A stretch of DNA of 38,141 nt from an uncultured Flavobacteriales bacterium (GTDB taxonomy: Bacteria; Bacteroidota; Bacteroidia; Flavobacteriales_D; Sanyastnellaceae): NCBI GenBank assembly GCA_937881575.1, contig CALGEI010000044.1:1-38141 (forward strand), read 5' to 3'. Made by a program: the position numbers and the translations under genes. Below the pieces are notes generated by a model. That model saw only the letters and a list, made by a program, of their open reading frames with translations, made no database searches and was not told the DNA's origin. Positions within the stretch are counted from its first letter, which is position 1. Every line of letters begins with the position of its first letter. This document shows positions 12,627 through 24,548 of the stretch, piece after piece.

Positions 12627-14009
12627 ATGGAATATTTGATTCTCGTAGTTTTTGTGTTGGGTTATGTGTTCATAGCACTTGAGCACAATTTCAAAGTGGA
12701 TAAAGCAGCTAGCGCTCTGCTCACGGGCACCATTTGTTGGGGCTTGTTTGTCACGGGAATCCATGAAGTTCCGGCTCACTTGGCTGAGGATTTTGCTTCG
12801 TTTCAACTGGGTTTTATCGGCGACGCAAAGTTGGCGTTGAATACGTTTTTTGAGCACCGACTCCTTCACCACATGGAGGACATTTCGTCTATTCTGTTCT
12901 TCCTTTTGGGTGCAATGACCATCGTGGAATTGGTGGATGCCCACGAGGGTTTTTCTGTCATCACGGATCGCATCAAGACCAAAAATAAAGTGGTGTTGAT
13001 GTGGATCTTGGCCTTGCTTACATTCTTCTTTTCGGCTGTTTTGGACAACCTCACGACTTCCATTGTCATGATTTCGCTGTTGCGGAAACTGATTGCGGAC
13101 AAAGAAACCCGTTGGTTGTATGCGGGCATTGTCATCATATCAGCCAATGCAGGTGGCGCTTGGTCTCCCATCGGAGACATCACCACGACGATGCTTTGGA
13201 TTGGCAATCAATTGACATCGGGCGTGATCATTACGCATCTGTTTTTGCCATCATTGGCCTGCTTGGTAGCGCCCTTGACCATTCTGTCCTTCACGATGAA
13301 AGGCGAGATCGAACGGCCCCAGCTTGAAGACAAAGACAAGGTTGACCCCACATCGCAAGGGGAGCGAAACCTGGTGTTCGTTTTGGGTGTGGTCGGCCTC
13401 TTGTTCGTACCTGTTTTCAAAACGGTGACTCACTTGCCTCCCTTCATGGGCATGATGCTTTCATTGGGCATGATGTGGGTGGTTACGGAGATCATCCACC
13501 GCTCAAAAAACCATGAGGAACGCGATCACCTCTCGGTCATTGGGGTTCTTCGCAAGATTGATTCGGCTTCTGTATTGTTCTTCTTGGGCATCTTGCTGGC
13601 TGTAGCGGCCTTGCAGGAAATCGGTCACTTGCTTGCGGCTGCTGCTTGGTTGCGCGACAATTTGGGCGATGTCTACGCCATCAATGTAACCATAGGATTC
13701 TTATCGGCGATCGTCGACAATGTTCCACTGGTAGCCGCGTCCATGGGCATGTACGATATCACGCCTGCTGCCGCAAATGTGGTCGCGGGCAGTTGGGAGA
13801 GTTACTTCGTTCAGGACGGTCTTTTCTGGCAATTTCTCGCTTATTGCGCTGGAACGGGAGGGTCCGCATTGATCATTGGTTCTGCTGCTGGTGTGGCCGT
13901 CATGGGGCTGGAGAAAATTGATTTCATGTGGTATGTGCGCAAAATCAGTTTGCTGGCCATCGTGGGGTATTTGTCCGGAGCCCTGGTGTTTTGGCTGATG
14001 TACCGATGA
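12627..14009 (+). CDS. nhaD: NhaD-type sodium/proton antiporter
   Basis: A 460-residue inner-membrane protein with about 11-13 hydrophobic segments, belonging to the ion-transporter (IT) superfamily. It shows the two matching half-motifs of that fold: AVLDNLTTSIVMISLLRKL followed by ANAGGAWSPIGDITTTMLWI in the first half, and AIVDNVPLVAASMGMY in the second. NhaD exchanges cytoplasmic Na+ or Li+ for protons, which fits a marine or saline habitat (the habitat is inference). ATG 12627 directly precedes the first membrane segment (YLILVVFVLGYVFIAL). No clear promoter box is seen in the short upstream gap, so it may be read from the preceding gene. A gap of 133 bases separates it from exbB, in which I see nothing clear. 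Confidence 0.9.
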   Translation: MEYLILVVFVLGYVFIALEHNFKVDKAASALLTGTICWGLFVTGIHEVPAHLAEDFASFQLGFIGDAKLALNTFFEHRLLHHMEDISSILFFLLGAMTIVELVDAHEGFSVITDRIKTKNKVVLMWILALLTFFFSAVLDNLTTSIVMISLLRKLIADKETRWLYAGIVIISANAGGAWSPIGDITTTMLWIGNQLTSGVIITHLFLPSLACLVAPLTILSFTMKGEIERPQLEDKDKVDPTSQGERNLVFVLGVVGLLFVPVFKTVTHLPPFMGMMLSLGMMWVVTEIIHRSKNHEERDHLSVIGVLRKIDSASVLFFLGILLAVAALQEIGHLLAAAAWLRDNLGDVYAINVTIGFLSAIVDNVPLVAASMGMYDITPAAANVVAGSWESYFVQDGLFWQFLAYCAGTGGSALIIGSAAGVAVMGLEKIDFMWYVRKISLLAIVGYLSGALVFWLMYR

Positions 14010-19777: not shown

Positions 19778-20560
19778 TTAAAGTCGGATGCTTCGAATTT
19801 CTTTGGTTAAATCGGGATTGGCCGTGAGCATGCCCCACTCATAGAAGTCGACAGCCTGCGTCCAATGGGCATCCTCGATGAGTTGACCCCAGGCTTGTTC
19901 CATATCGGAAGACCAATGAATGTCGTCGCAAACGAGTACCCCGCGCGGTCGAAGCCAGGGCTTGAGCTCCTTGACGTAGGCGATCAATGCGCTGCCGATG
20001 TGGTGGCCGTCAATGAAAATGAGGTCAAAACCAGGATGGTTTTTGGCTCGCCATTCTTCAATGAGGACAGGGATCGTTTCGGCGAATGGTCCTTCGCTGA
20101 TGGCAATGTTCGTCAGACCTAAGGTGTTCCATTGTTCACGGGCCAATTTTGCGATGGCAGGATCTCCTTCGCAGGTCGTCACAGCGTGGGCACCTGTTGC
20201 CAAATAAGCAGTCGTTAAACCGAGGGATGTGCCCAATTCGAGAATGTGCTCTGCTTGCATGCTTTGTGCGAGGTTTCCCAAGGCTGCAGCGTGTTTCGTC
20301 CGCTTCAATGATCTGCGGGCGATGTCGCTCACGGTTTGTGAAGCTCCTTGCGAGCCGGCGCCAAAATCAACGCGTTGAATTGAAGTGGTGTCCTTCTTGA
20401 GGTGTTTTCGTCGGCCTTCAATCATGGCGTTTTCTGCTGCCATTTGATTCATTGACTGCAGTAAACCAAACAACCAGGGTGGGTGAACAGCTCTCCAAGA
20501 GCTGGAGTTTTTGCGCCATTTAATCCAGCTTAGAATACGATGTGACCAAATATTTTTCAC
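19778..20560 (-). CDS. Class I SAM-dependent methyltransferase (O-methyltransferase-like)
   Basis: A 260-residue Rossmann-fold methyltransferase. SAM motif I is HILELGTSLGLTTAYLA, the acidic end of strand 2 is CEGDP, and a PF13578-like DLIFIDGHH follows strand 4, with VLVCDDIHW after it. The substrate is unknown. The start is GTG at 20558-20560: the N-terminal stretch RAVHPPWLFGLLQ resembles the conserved HGVHSPFVF-type region of Bacteroidota relatives that I recall, and it lies upstream of the first ATG (20452), so a shorter start would delete it. An exact -7 box ends 5 bases before this GTG. It appears to lead the minus-strand run methyltransferase, kinase, gpmI, and is divergent from tRNA-Val. 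Confidence 0.82.
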   Translation of the reverse strand: MKNIWSHRILSWIKWRKNSSSWRAVHPPWLFGLLQSMNQMAAENAMIEGRRKHLKKDTTSIQRVDFGAGSQGASQTVSDIARRSLKRTKHAAALGNLAQSMQAEHILELGTSLGLTTAYLATGAHAVTTCEGDPAIAKLAREQWNTLGLTNIAISEGPFAETIPVLIEEWRAKNHPGFDLIFIDGHHIGSALIAYVKELKPWLRPRGVLVCDDIHWSSDMEQAWGQLIEDAHWTQAVDFYEWGMLTANPDLTKEIRSIRL

Positions 20561-20565
20561 CTTCC

Positions 20566-20573
20566 CAAAAGTA
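20566..20573 (-). promoter_or_regulatory. -7 box immediately before the methyltransferase start
   Basis: Minus-strand TACTTTTG matches TAnnTTTG exactly and ends 5 bases before the GTG start at 20560. Given that the box is centred near -7, transcription should start at or beside the GTG, predicting a leaderless mRNA. It lies back to back with the tRNA-Val promoter box at 20600. Confidence 0.6.
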
Positions 20574-20599
20574 CAATGCAGAGAACATGAAATTTGGAT

Positions 20600-20607
20600 T
20601 ATCTTTG
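20600..20607 (+). promoter_or_regulatory. -7 promoter box for tRNA-Val
   Basis: TATCTTTG, an exact TAnnTTTG match, ends 10 bases before the first base of the mature tRNA, leaving a short 5' leader for RNase P to remove. No clear -33 element is seen. Confidence 0.65.
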
Positions 20608-20617
20608 CCCCCCATTC

Positions 20618-20695
20618 GGGCGATTAGCTCAGTTGGTTCAGAGCACCTCGTTTACACCGAGGGGGTCGGGAGTTCGAGTCTCTCATCGCCCACCA
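20618..20695 (+). tRNA. tRNA-Val (anticodon TAC)
   Basis: A full cloverleaf can be folded: acceptor GGGCGAT with ATCGCCC, D-arm GCTC with GAGC, anticodon stem CCTCG with CGAGG around loop TTTACAC (anticodon TAC, reading GTA and probably other Val codons), and T-arm GGGAG TTCGAGT CTCTC with one G-T wobble. The discriminator is A20692 and the 3' CCA (20693-20695) is encoded in the DNA. A terminator follows directly, so it is a single-gene transcript unless readthrough reaches blh. Confidence 0.97.
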
Positions 20696-20736
20696 AAGCG
20701 GAATCTTTCTCTCTTGAGATGGGTTCCGCTTTTTTT
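20696..20736 (+). terminator. Rho-independent terminator after tRNA-Val
   Basis: The 8-base stem AAGCGGAA pairs with TTCCGCTT around a 20-base loop and runs into seven T residues. It starts at the base after the tRNA CCA. It separates the tRNA from blh. Confidence 0.85.
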
Positions 20737-20774
20737 ATGACTTGCTCTGTTCAGGGGCTTTGGACACTTGACTC

Positions 20775-20782
20775 TATTTTCG
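20775..20782 (+). promoter_or_regulatory. Near-consensus -7 box before blh
   Basis: TATTTTCG has one mismatch to TAnnTTTG and ends 4 bases before the blh ATG. It lies just after the tRNA terminator, where a new promoter is required. No -33 TTG sits at the normal spacing. Confidence 0.35.
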
Positions 20783-20786
20783 TGCC

Positions 20787-21689
20787 ATGAATGTGTTCAC
20801 TTTCATTTTTGTGGTTTGCCTGTATGCGCTGTACCATTTGCTAGAGGCTTATACAGATATCAGTATCGAACGCGAACTAGCGGTTTCTTCGGTTTTGATT
20901 CTAACTTTTGGAATTCCTCATGGCGCCATTGATCATGTGTTGTTCTTTAAAAAGAATACCGTGTCTCAACTGAGGTTTTATGGTGTCTACCTCGGATTGA
21001 CTCTCTTGTTTTTGGTCGGTTGGATGATTGAGCCGTTGTGGAGTTTTGTCTTTTTCTTGGTGCTTTCTGCGTTCCATTTTGGAGAAAGTCAACTCAACGA
21101 CTTGAAGTTGAAACGGCGGATTATGCGTCCTGTTTTGTTTCTCACTTGGGGGTTGACCTTGCTGCTGACGCTGATTTATTACAACACGGAGGAGCTCATT
21201 GGATACACCGGGTTTTTCAATGATACGGAAGTTTTTCAGGCAGTATACTCACACGCACTTCTCTTCGAAGCATTCATTGCATTGAACGCATTGACCGGGG
21301 TTACGCTCTTCGTTTTTATAGAACGAGCCTCCTTTAACTGGAATCGATTGGGTGGGGAACTCTTCCTCCTCGCGCTGATCCACTTGACGTTCTTTTTGTT
21401 CCCATTCATCATTGGCTTCACCATGTATTTTGTGGTGTTGCATTCAATGCGCGTGATGAGTCATGAGTTTGAGTTTTTGAAAAGCGAGGATGCGGGGTTT
21501 TCAGGTCGAGACTTTTTGAAGCTGTTGATGCCCTATTCCCTGTTGAGCATCTTTTTCACAGTGATCACGTTCTGGCTTTCTTGGATGGAGGTCATTCCAG
21601 TCTCCATTCCGTTGTTGGCCTTGATCATTATCTCTGCCATCACGCTGCCTCATGCCGTGGTGATGCACTTGTTTTATAAGCAGAGTTAG
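20787..21689 (+). CDS. blh: Brp/Blh family beta-carotene 15,15'-oxygenase
   Basis: Brp/Blh proteins are membrane enzymes that cleave beta-carotene into two molecules of retinal, the chromophore of microbial rhodopsins. This 300-residue protein has about seven to eight hydrophobic segments and the conserved histidine-bearing motifs FGIPHGAIDHVLF (H45, H50), SAFHFGESQ (H97), LHSMRVMSHEF (H219, H226) and LPHAVVMH (H289, H294), which are thought to bind iron. No rhodopsin, carotenoid cyclase (crtY) or other crt gene lies in the window, so the retinal user must be encoded elsewhere. It is preceded by the tRNA-Val terminator and a near-consensus -7 box, and followed after 66 bases by a DUF805 gene. 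The family assignment is strong; enzymatic activity is inferred. Confidence 0.9.
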   Translation: MNVFTFIFVVCLYALYHLLEAYTDISIERELAVSSVLILTFGIPHGAIDHVLFFKKNTVSQLRFYGVYLGLTLLFLVGWMIEPLWSFVFFLVLSAFHFGESQLNDLKLKRRIMRPVLFLTWGLTLLLTLIYYNTEELIGYTGFFNDTEVFQAVYSHALLFEAFIALNALTGVTLFVFIERASFNWNRLGGELFLLALIHLTFFLFPFIIGFTMYFVVLHSMRVMSHEFEFLKSEDAGFSGRDFLKLLMPYSLLSIFFTVITFWLSWMEVIPVSIPLLALIIISAITLPHAVVMHLFYKQS

Positions 21690-21755
21690 CTGTGAAGTTG
21701 ATTCATCTTTTGTCAAGAGAATTTCGTTTCTTGTCGAGACTAAGCTCAAGAATCA

Positions 21756-22130
21756 ATGCAGTGGTTTCTAAAAGTGTTGAATCAGTATTCCGATTTTGAT
21801 GGAAGAGCCCGGAGGAAAGAATACTGGATGTTTGTGCTCTTCAATATGGTATTCGGATTCGCGGCGTCCATGTTGGATGTCGCTCTTGGTCTGATTTGGG
21901 GAGTTTGGGGATACGGTTTGATCCAAGCGATTTACGGCTTGGCGATGTTCATTCCAGGTTTGGCGGTCGGTGTGCGGCGGTTGCACGATGTCGGGAAAAG
22001 TGGATGGATGTTCCTCATCTTGTTGATTCCAATTATTGGCTTCATCTGGTTGACGGTCCTTTTGCTGATAGAAGGAGATCCGGTTGAAAACCAATATGGG
22101 CCCAATCCCAAGAATTTCCCGAGCATGTAG
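21756..22130 (+). CDS. DUF805 small inner-membrane protein
   Basis: A 124-residue protein with three hydrophobic segments (about 25-45, 50-72 and 85-105). DUF805 features are visible: the N-terminal SDFDGRARRKEYWMFVLFN and the central GVRRLHDVGKSGWMFLI, ending with NQYGPNPK. The function of this widespread family is unknown. It lies 66 bases after blh on the same strand, but I see no evidence of a functional link. The 100-base gap to the convergent T9SS cargo gene holds only a weak imperfect hairpin. Confidence 0.88.
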   Translation: MQWFLKVLNQYSDFDGRARRKEYWMFVLFNMVFGFAASMLDVALGLIWGVWGYGLIQAIYGLAMFIPGLAVGVRRLHDVGKSGWMFLILLIPIIGFIWLTVLLLIEGDPVENQYGPNPKNFPSM

Positions 22131-22230
22131 TCTGCCTTCATCCGAATGGATTTGGATGGGTACGGTGAAGGATTTTCAGGCCATTTCCAGAACGGAAAAG
22201 AGGGTCGTGGTGAGCCTAATCCTGTGAGAA

Positions 22231-24456
22231 TTACTGACGCTTCCGCAAAATGGAAATAGGCCCGTGGTAGGTTTCACCATCGGAGCGTTTCAAGATGTAG
22301 TAATAGGTTCCCTCAGCGACGGGGTTGCCATTCATTCGACCATCCCATCCGCCTTTGTAGTCGTCATCCTGAAAGACCATATTTCCCCAGCGGTTGAAGA
22401 TTTCAATGCGGGAATTGGGAAATCCTTCAATGCCTGGAATCCGGAAAAAGTCGTTGTAGGTATCATTGTTCGGTGAGAAAACGTTTGGAATCTCCGTGTC
22501 GCACGCAATTAGACTGATCATGAAGGAAGCATCACTGCCACATTGATCAACCGCCCATACTTCCATCGTCCCTTGCTGCACCGTGGATTGATAGTTTCCA
22601 AAAGGACCAATGAACGTCACGAGGCTGTCCAAAAACTGATCAACGGCCACCCACGCAGAGTCTTGCGGATTCTGATTCGAATCAAAATTGGAATACTGCC
22701 ACGTATAGAAGGAATAAGAGCCTGTGCCACCTTCCAAGCCAAGACTCGCCTGGAGTCCAAGACAAACATCATCTTCGTCACCTGTAATGGGGGCGTAAAC
22801 GGGGATTTCGACTTCCCATTCGACGACAGATTCAGTTTCGCATGGATCGGTCACCGTCAAAATGACGGTTGAGCTCGTGTTGAGATTGACCAACTCGGTT
22901 TGGCTGTCTCCGCCTGTGGACCAATTGTAATCAAATGGCCCTACGCCCGTGTTGATTCCCGCTTGTAAATACACGCTATCTCCTGCGCAAAGCGGGTCAT
23001 TCAACTGGTCGATGTAGGTGTTCAATTCTGGAGGCTGTGTATACGCAACGGTGGCTTCGACTTCGTTGCCACAGACATCGGTCACCACGACATCTGCCGT
23101 TCCCGGATTGTTGGTCGTCACGACATTCACAGCGAGGGTGTCATTCGTCCCGGTACTCCATTGATAAGAATACGGGCCATACCCGCTAATGGGATTGACC
23201 TCCAGAACGGCCTCTCCTTGACAAATGCCTACAGGAGATTCAAAGTCAAGCGTCGTTTGTTCGAAATCTTGTATCACCAGGGTGGCCGATCGCAAGACGG
23301 AATCGCCGCACAGATTCGTGTACAGGTACTCGATGGTCACGGTTTCGGGGGCTTCGGCTTCTGCGTCAGCGTAGACAATCAATGGCAAATCATAAATGTA
23401 TTGTCCCACCAACATGATCACTTCCGGATCGATGGTTTCGTAATCGACACCGTTCGTCGCTGTACCTGAAATGGTCACATTCAACGTGTCTTCTGTCGTT
23501 GCGCTTGGACGAATGATTTTGAATATGGCATTGTTGCAGGATTCCACCACTGTTGTGTCTCCTAGAAAGATCTGATTTCCAGAAACGGATGCGCTGGCCA
23601 CCAGGTCAAATGCATTGGAGGAAAAGCTGCCTTCTTCTAAAACCACGATGGACTCCAAAGCGATGTCACTGCCGTCAGCAATGGCGAGCTTGATGTGATA
23701 CGTTGCGCCGCATTGGACCGCGTATTCTGCTGTAAACGGTACCGTGTAGCCGTTGATGCAAACATCGGTTCCCCCTTGATTGTCTTCGTAGTAAACAGCG
23801 TTTGTGCCCGAGTTGACTGAAGAGATGGTGATGGGCAAAATGGGGTCGGTATCGGGGACACCGGCAATGTTGACCGCTCCATCGGGAAATCCAGCTGGAC
23901 TATCGAACGGACCCGTAATCCCTGGTCCGCTCAAGAAAAAGGCGAAGACATCGTTGTATTGGGTATTGATCCACGTCTCGTACTCGTCTGATCCGAAGAC
24001 GTAATTGAAACTAATTGAATCCCCGCCGGAGACAAAATCAAACTCCAAGACACATCCATCGTTTACTGAAGTTACGGTGAAGTTTTGGCCGATCATCGGT
24101 GGAACAGAATTGGCGATGTCCAGCAAGTCTGGGTCAGCGAAGGCTCCTCCGAGACAGTCGTCGCAGGTGTTGATGGAGCATTCGAGGTTTTCTGAAGCAT
24201 CCGTGCTCAGAACCAATCCTGAAGCGATGGAAAAGGAATCTTCTCCTTGGGTTAAATAGCCCAATTGTGAGATCCCACCCGTGTACGTCACGTTGAACGC
24301 TTCAACACCATCACCAAGAAGCACGGTGTTGACATATTCTTCGGGCGTGAGTCCCTGTTCCACTTGAATCTGACCTTGTGCTGGAGTCCAAGCGAACAAA
24401 AGATACGCCAGTCCTAAAACCCAATGGCCTGAGGTTCTCTGTTGGCCCTTCTTCAT
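22231..24456 (-). CDS. Secreted T9SS type B sorting-domain protein with choice-of-anchor L domain
   Basis: A 741-residue secreted or surface protein. A signal peptide (about 1-28, with a hydrophobic core from VLGLAYLLFAW) is followed by a choice-of-anchor L-like region (about 30-300, with ASGLVLSTDA and FNYVFGSDEYETWINTQYN), several Ig/PKD-like beta-sandwich repeats with YSYQWSTG and DYNWSTGGDS units, and a C-terminal CHU_C/gliding-type domain of about 85 residues (IPNVFSPNNDTYNDFFRIPG, IEIFNRWGNMVF, GGWDGR, GTYYYIL). Such type B domains direct export through the type IX system. I chose ATG 24456 because it gives a normal signal peptide; ATG 24513 would add 19 residues and better fits the promoter box at 24541. 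The ligand or function is unknown; adhesion or motility is plausible. Confidence 0.88.
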   Translation of the reverse strand: MKKGQQRTSGHWVLGLAYLLFAWTPAQGQIQVEQGLTPEEYVNTVLLGDGVEAFNVTYTGGISQLGYLTQGEDSFSIASGLVLSTDASENLECSINTCDDCLGGAFADPDLLDIANSVPPMIGQNFTVTSVNDGCVLEFDFVSGGDSISFNYVFGSDEYETWINTQYNDVFAFFLSGPGITGPFDSPAGFPDGAVNIAGVPDTDPILPITISSVNSGTNAVYYEDNQGGTDVCINGYTVPFTAEYAVQCGATYHIKLAIADGSDIALESIVVLEEGSFSSNAFDLVASASVSGNQIFLGDTTVVESCNNAIFKIIRPSATTEDTLNVTISGTATNGVDYETIDPEVIMLVGQYIYDLPLIVYADAEAEAPETVTIEYLYTNLCGDSVLRSATLVIQDFEQTTLDFESPVGICQGEAVLEVNPISGYGPYSYQWSTGTNDTLAVNVVTTNNPGTADVVVTDVCGNEVEATVAYTQPPELNTYIDQLNDPLCAGDSVYLQAGINTGVGPFDYNWSTGGDSQTELVNLNTSSTVILTVTDPCETESVVEWEVEIPVYAPITGDEDDVCLGLQASLGLEGGTGSYSFYTWQYSNFDSNQNPQDSAWVAVDQFLDSLVTFIGPFGNYQSTVQQGTMEVWAVDQCGSDASFMISLIACDTEIPNVFSPNNDTYNDFFRIPGIEGFPNSRIEIFNRWGNMVFQDDDYKGGWDGRMNGNPVAEGTYYYILKRSDGETYHGPISILRKRQ

Positions 24457-24540
24457 CGAAAAAGGCTTCGAAAAACAGCCTCGGGGATTGAATGTGCGAA
24501 TGGAGTGGTTCATGGATAGGATACAGAGCGTGGATACATT

Positions 24541-24548
24541 CAAACATA
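24541..24548 (-). promoter_or_regulatory. -7 box upstream of the T9SS type B cargo gene
   Basis: Minus-strand TATGTTTG matches TAnnTTTG exactly. It lies 27 bases before the in-frame ATG at 24513 and 84 bases before ATG 24456, within the 172-base divergent gap shared with the ABC ATPase gene. A TTG 15 bases upstream could serve as -33, though the spacer is short. Confidence 0.55.

Follow-up and report, generated by a model that had tools for sequence, protein, structure and literature searches.

In marine Flavobacteriia, the genes for rhodopsin and for Blh, the Brp/Blh family beta-carotene 15,15'-dioxygenase, are often adjacent, according to the accessible part of PMC5932025, and in Dokdonia, blh adjoins the proteorhodopsin gene (PMC3587595, available text). 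A CrtI-CrtB-CrtYcd-Blh fusion is described for a protist in the accessible portion of PMC10016063. Rhodopsin phototrophy is often inferred from an adjacent pair of rhodopsin and blh genes.

The DNA analyzed here (the window) is a stretch of 38,141 nucleotides from an uncultured Flavobacteriales bacterium of the family Sanyastnellaceae and corresponds to contig C44 of the 2.59-Mb draft genome G000 (213 contigs, 99.06% complete, 1.22% contaminated). The original prediction placed a Brp/Blh gene between a tRNA-Val gene and a DUF805 gene, with no rhodopsin or carotenoid (crt) genes beside it, and this arrangement was confirmed by profile matches and inspection of the flanks. The gene belongs to a known family, and an unlinked blh is not new as such. 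Going beyond the original prediction, we found that blh is unlinked from rhodopsin genus-wide and that two different blh genes occupy two sites. We consider it probable (roughly 0.85) that the gene of the window encodes an ordinary Blh feeding an unlinked proteorhodopsin, that this Blh was gained independently of the enzyme of the sister lineage, and that the rhodopsin locus is conserved.

The type A blh gene

The blh gene of the window, denoted type A, occupies positions 20787 to 21689 of the plus strand, with boundaries unchanged from the original prediction, and encodes a protein of 300 aa with an ATG start. The protein covers PF15461 (BCD) over its full length, scoring 145.8 bits (E = 2.5e-42) against a cut-off of 28, and exceeds the cut-off of TIGR03753 (blh_monoox; 141.1 bits against 95.25); judged from these matches, which chance cannot explain, it is a member of the Brp/Blh family. 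Four histidines, H45, H97, H219, and H289, are invariant in a 15-sequence alignment and presumably bind iron. Hydrophobic stretches extend over most of the 300 residues, as expected of a multi-pass membrane protein. AlphaFold modeling of type A Blh (two sequences) yielded a mean pLDDT of 43, too poor for use, and a search for solved structures related by sequence to the window protein found none up to an E-value of 10.

The 300-aa reading frame is intact in G000 and in the related genomes G015 and G008, with a dN/dS of about 0.10 (0.08/0.775 against G015 and 0.086/0.829 against G008), which indicates that the protein is kept by selection. The G+C content of blh, 44.3%, is the lowest among the 32 ORFs of the window (50.3% for the window), a weak sign of transfer. 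A search of genome contigs with the window protein alone returned one locus, an 84% relative, the contig of which is probably identical with G008:C4. Viral carriage of blh was also considered and rejected: none of 32 pattern matches among viral contigs was confirmed.

Rhodopsin and carotenoid genes elsewhere in the genome

Searches of the entire G000 genome with the PF15461, PF01036, and PF00494 profiles returned one match each, so that blh is present in a single copy, and the latter two matches lie off the blh contig. The sole rhodopsin gene (G000:C175:16-738; PF01036, 134.1 bits, cut-off 24.6) encodes a protein with a D-T-E motif in helix C (DWTLTVPLMCVE) and the retinal-binding lysine in helix G (DAINK). 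The D-T-E motif is found in all 49 rhodopsins of the family that we examined. We take it to be the motif of proton-pumping proteorhodopsins, and the methionine at the tuning position of this protein presumably corresponds to that of green-absorbing forms. Sodium-pumping rhodopsins have an N-D-Q motif in helix C; the presence of D-T-E in its place rules out a sodium pump, and by motif, the protein on C175 is a predicted proton pump. The original prediction had read the NhaD antiporter gene of the window as fitting a sodium-rich setting in which sodium- or proton-pumping rhodopsins occur. The family assignment of this antiporter, encoded at positions 12627 to 14009, is sound (NF038006, 129.4 bits, cut-off 80), and the protein scores 345.9 bits with TIGR00775, below the equivalog cut-off of 577.1. 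The hint at a sodium pump is not supported, given that the D-T-E motif speaks for a proton pump and that the ion moved by a rhodopsin cannot be read from an NhaD gene.

The neighbors of the rhodopsin gene on C175 are an AIR-synthase family gene and a rhodanese-domain gene, which are probably SelD and SelU. The rhodopsins of G000 and G015 are 99.2% identical at the protein level and share the same gene order, which makes it unlikely that C175 is a contaminant. Of the 18 genus genomes with rhodopsin, 14 have the gene enclosed by Maf and AIR-synthase family genes; the other four loci are cut by contig ends or affected by ORF calling, and none contradicts these flanks.

The crt cluster is located on the minus strand of contig C199 (L006:5264-12244) and comprises a heterodimer-type lycopene cyclase (PF18916, above cut-off), a CruF-like gene (PF04240), CrtD (NF042421), isopentenyl-diphosphate isomerase, a phytoene/squalene synthase family gene (PF00494, above cut-off), and the CrtI/CrtID phytoene desaturase (NF058655, above cut-off). 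The counterparts of crtB, crtI, and crtY for which the original prediction proposed a search were all found, and judged by family membership, G000 encodes a phytoene synthase, a phytoene desaturase, and a lycopene cyclase, the three enzymes expected for making beta-carotene. Of the two options originally offered, a rhodopsin encoded elsewhere and another use of retinal, the former stands, with rhodopsin on C175 and the crt genes on C199, and the latter is not needed.

The heterodimer-type PF18916 protein is the only lycopene cyclase found in G000; a profile search of the genome detected no FAD-type cyclase (PF05834), using a profile that matched in 10 of 14 control genomes. With its CrtD- and CruF-like genes, the C199 cluster may have a monocyclic pigment as its end product. 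Because of this possible end product and the presence of the heterodimer cyclase only, the supply of beta-carotene is predicted, short of proof.

Linkage and co-occurrence of blh and rhodopsin

We compared 22 genomes of the genus with 70 genomes (at least 80% complete) from the rest of the family. Within the genus, blh scored above the Pfam cut-off in 17 of the 22 genomes and rhodopsin was found in 18. All 15 genomes with both genes carry them on different contigs, so the adjacent pair common in Flavobacteriia was found in none (0/15). Of the 70 genomes from the rest of the family, 39 encode both, adjacent (at most 3 kb apart) in 31, on different contigs in 7, and 83 kb apart in 1; the difference between 0/15 and 31/39 is significant (Fisher test, 5.7e-8). 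The figure for the rest of the family is in line with the original statement that blh usually lies near rhodopsin, as is the accessible part of PMC5932025.

Fragmentation alone could place two genes on different contigs, but in the genus, both were seen with other flanks, and the surroundings of each are visible without the other gene. It is hardly credible, then, that the separation is an artifact of assembly or binning, caused by a foreign rhodopsin contig or by contig breaks that hide linkage. Although G000 is a draft of 213 contigs and C175, at 4.4 kb, starts only 15 bases before the rhodopsin gene, the longer rhodopsin contigs of relatives show the same Maf and AIR-synthase neighbors without blh, whereas both blh flanks are contained in the window and recur in G015 and G008.

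Over the same 70 genomes outside the genus, the two genes co-occur strongly (39 genomes with both, 5 with rhodopsin only, 1 with blh only, and 25 with neither; p = 5e-13, counting as a rhodopsin bearer G107, in which the gene is in two pieces), that is, 39 of 40 blh genomes carry rhodopsin. The corresponding numbers for the genus (15, 3, 2, and 2) are not significant (p = 0.21), many of its genomes being incomplete and the numbers too few. Rhodopsin occurs without blh above the cut-off in G002, G003, and G004, and blh occurs without a rhodopsin match in G005 and G007.

The two genomes of the latter kind could be taken to indicate that Blh has another role, with retinal or a different cleavage product used elsewhere, or a function in the membrane or in salt stress, rhodopsin being incidental. 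The NhaD antiporter in the window would fit such a role, as would the brp/blh-family protein from a gut metagenome that gave Escherichia coli salt tolerance, as reported in the accessible part of PMC4110020. We nevertheless regard this as highly unlikely because G000 carries both rhodopsin and the crt cluster, rhodopsin accompanies blh nearly throughout the rest of the family (39/40), and G005 is only 73% complete.

The three genomes with rhodopsin only would be compatible with decay of blh in this lineage, the rhodopsin relying on uptake of external retinal, a possibility discussed for rhodopsin bearers lacking blh in the available text of PMC12422013. Broken type A frames in G012 and G020 point the same way. 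Very little probability can be given to this scenario, however, in view of the intact frames in G000, G015, and G008 and their low dN/dS. The breaks themselves, in-frame stops in G012 and two frames in G020 (loci L074 and L075), are both close to contig ends and appear to reflect either assembly error or decay.

Two blh types at two sites in one genus

Besides G000, type A blh is present in G008, G012, G015, and G020, with 83-85% identity to the window protein. Twelve other genomes of the genus (G001, G005, G006, G007, G009, G011, G013, G014, G016, G017, G018, and G019) encode a different Blh, denoted type B, which shows 18.6-22.1% identity to type A in a multiple alignment that included three proteins of type A and five of type B. 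The two types occur together in none of the 22 genomes.

Type B blh occupies a slot between two homologous genes for large secreted proteins with IgGFc_binding and CHU_C domains (Pfam, determined in G009) and was found there in all 12 type B genomes. Both flanking genes are also present in the type A genomes, with blh between them in 0 of 5. The slot is empty in G015, where 90 bases separate the flanking genes. A SulP/STAS anion transporter fills it in G000 and G012 (L173:8361-10091 and L176:4365-6092, respectively), and G008 and G020 (L175 and L177) have an equally large ORF there, with a nearly identical N-terminus. An exchange of A and B within one genus, with reciprocal sites, was not met in our limited literature search, which is no proof that it is unpublished.

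The site of type A blh is, always and within contig reach, between the tRNA-Val side and a gene for a secreted protein with a CHU_C domain. On the upstream side, a methyltransferase-family gene (19778-20560, minus strand; PF13578), syntenic in relatives, precedes tRNA-Val(TAC), which was identified by ARAGORN at 20618-20695 on the plus strand. Between the tRNA gene and blh lies the intrinsic terminator of the former (20695-20732, plus strand), an inverted repeat forming a predicted hairpin followed by a T run (-23.2 kcal/mol, z = -5.92), one stem pair of which is G-C in G000 and A-T in G015 and G008. In an alignment of these three genomes, a 17-base block directly 5' of the blh start (20767-20783, plus strand) is identical and the preceding bases differ; this block is probably a promoter element of blh. 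Given the separate terminator of tRNA-Val and this conserved block, blh is probably transcribed alone. Downstream of blh, and before the CHU_C gene, G000 has the DUF805 gene (21756-22130, plus strand; PF05656, 114.3 bits, cut-off 25.7), which tblastn did not find in the corresponding loci of G015, G008, and G012 (L072-L074). The CHU_C gene (22231-24543, minus strand; PF13585, 91.6 bits), the product of which carries this type IX secretion signal, is likewise syntenic in relatives.

The tRNA-Val gene is visible beside type A blh in G000, G015, and G008. In the ten genomes without type A blh in which both flanks of the site can be seen (eight with type B, plus G002 and G004, which lack blh), tRNA-Val is present in 10/10 and blh in 0/10. 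The site measures about 50-140 bases in G001, G004, G006, G013, G016, and G018 and is filled by other genes in G002, G005, G011, and G017; it seems to accept different inserts. In G002, G017, G005, and G011, an opposite-strand gene with a frame of 256 codons lies 3' of tRNA-Val (loci L137, L138, L147, and L149). In G010, the CHU_C side was found on a contig from which tRNA-Val and the methyltransferase gene are both absent. As for direct repeats of the kind left by integration at a tRNA gene, the repeats listed for the interval 20400-22400 included no copy of the 3' end of this tRNA.

Phylogeny of Blh, AsnS, and rhodopsin

A tree was built for 52 Blh domains, leaving out G012 with its broken frame and representing G020 by its longer piece only. 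Type A groups with the blh of genus g14 (support 97/95), and type B groups with fusions of lycopene cyclase and Blh (98/93 with G033). Monophyly of A and B was rejected, at a cost of 143 log-likelihood units (p-AU 1.3e-7), in a constraint analysis that left out the long or unsure sequences of G052, G031, G085, G022, G035, G102, G105, and G097; both Blh trees carried long-branch warnings. Together with the lowest G+C content in the window, the tree position of type A suggests transfer of blh.

In the AsnS tree, used as a stand-in for species history, the five type A species are joined (99/95), followed by G010 (97/88), and the sister genus g9 (G029) is attached weakly to this group (88/71), against the type B species. 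Because type A plus G010 and type B thus separate near the base of the genus, the tree gives no direction of change.

The placement of this split close to the genus base would be compatible with both blh genes being old paralogs of the genus ancestor, one of which was lost in each lineage, such that no transfer is needed; furthermore, both sites are conserved loci across the genus. We consider such a history unlikely, however, because double carriers are lacking in the genus (0/22), the nearest kin of the two types differ (genus g14 for A and the cyclase-Blh fusions for B), and among the 55 family genomes with a match, none was seen to carry two separate blh genes. G020, G030, and G076 each have two blh rows, which appear to be parts of a single split gene.

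The rhodopsin tree included 49 sequences, 18 from the genus and 31 from the rest of the family, in which 44 genomes had a match. The rhodopsins of the type A species cluster together, and those of the remaining members of the genus make up a second group. Four sequences from genus g3 fall beside the A group (95/92), within the wider genus group (100/97), and for this reason, strictly vertical descent of rhodopsin cannot be taken as given. In g3 (G090-G095), rhodopsins 77-86% identical to that of G000 lie beside a third kind of blh.

The fusions consist of single ORFs with a PF05834 domain followed by PF15461 (Pfam), as in L025:241-2220 (G029), L219:8226-10286 (G067), L222:8267-10312 (G082), and L225:8145-10178 (G073). 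An ORF length of 648-731 aa points to this fusion in 14 of the 55 blh-matching genomes of the family, and also in G033 and G044; several of these ORFs adjoin rhodopsin. Judging from the domain composition, such an enzyme could turn lycopene into retinal. Our limited literature search found no case of a bacterial lycopene cyclase-Blh fusion.

The carotenoid genes allow a further, rather improbable scenario, in which Blh was swapped for a distant homolog, by gain at the tRNA gene site and loss of the other copy, since the carotenoid substrate had changed. Type A would then suit the heterodimer-cyclase pathway and possibly monocyclic carotenoids. This scenario stems from the lack of PF05834 in G000, which encodes only the heterodimer cyclase with CrtD/CruF-like genes, and from the fusion of lycopene cyclase to Blh in related genera.

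A proposed movable retinal step and its relation to known systems

Our preferred reading, an ordinary Blh serving an unlinked proteorhodopsin, draws directly on the gene families and their places, the mutual exclusion of the two types, the blh-free sites in the respective other group, the separate tree positions, and purifying selection. In the simplest mechanism, membrane-bound Blh would split beta-carotene supplied by the crt cluster at a third genome location, and the resulting retinal, made in the membrane, would be picked up as the chromophore of the light-driven, proton-pumping proteorhodopsin encoded elsewhere in G000, without any need for gene linkage. Retinal being diffusible, Blh could function wherever its gene is located, so that linkage would be dispensable and one Blh could replace another. 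Rhodopsin would have stayed in one locus, and Blh would have been obtained separately in two lineages, at the tRNA-Val site in A and in the secreted-protein slot in B. Overall, the interpretation given with the original prediction is partly supported.

The whole genus would fail a local adjacency test despite the presence of nearly all parts, the retinal step appearing exchangeable and the pump fixed in its locus. Should this be confirmed, retinal auxotrophy ought not to be called from linkage. The genus, with its types A and B, would then also offer a natural comparison for asking whether a Blh is selected by substrate, by regulation, or by chance.

Among described proteins, BrpA from the gut metagenome (PMC4110020, accessible part) resembles type A Blh in family and in gene context, neither having an adjacent rhodopsin gene, but G000 also holds rhodopsin and a crt cluster. 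The lycopene cyclase-Blh fusions (PF05834 plus PF15461) of related genera have a C-terminal half related to type B Blh; in contrast, type A is a single-domain protein on another branch of the Blh tree, in a genome without a PF05834 cyclase. Like other D-T-E proteorhodopsins (PF01036), the C175 protein has the D-T-E motif and the lysine and is the only one in its genome, but in this genus, the gene is flanked by Maf and AIR-synthase family genes rather than by blh. Finally, type A Blh is similar to Blh proteins encoded beside rhodopsin in family, length, hydrophobic build, and, within the alignment, the invariant histidines, and its genome likewise encodes a proteorhodopsin; it differs in that its gene stands alone behind tRNA-Val, whereas the sister lineage has a different Blh elsewhere.
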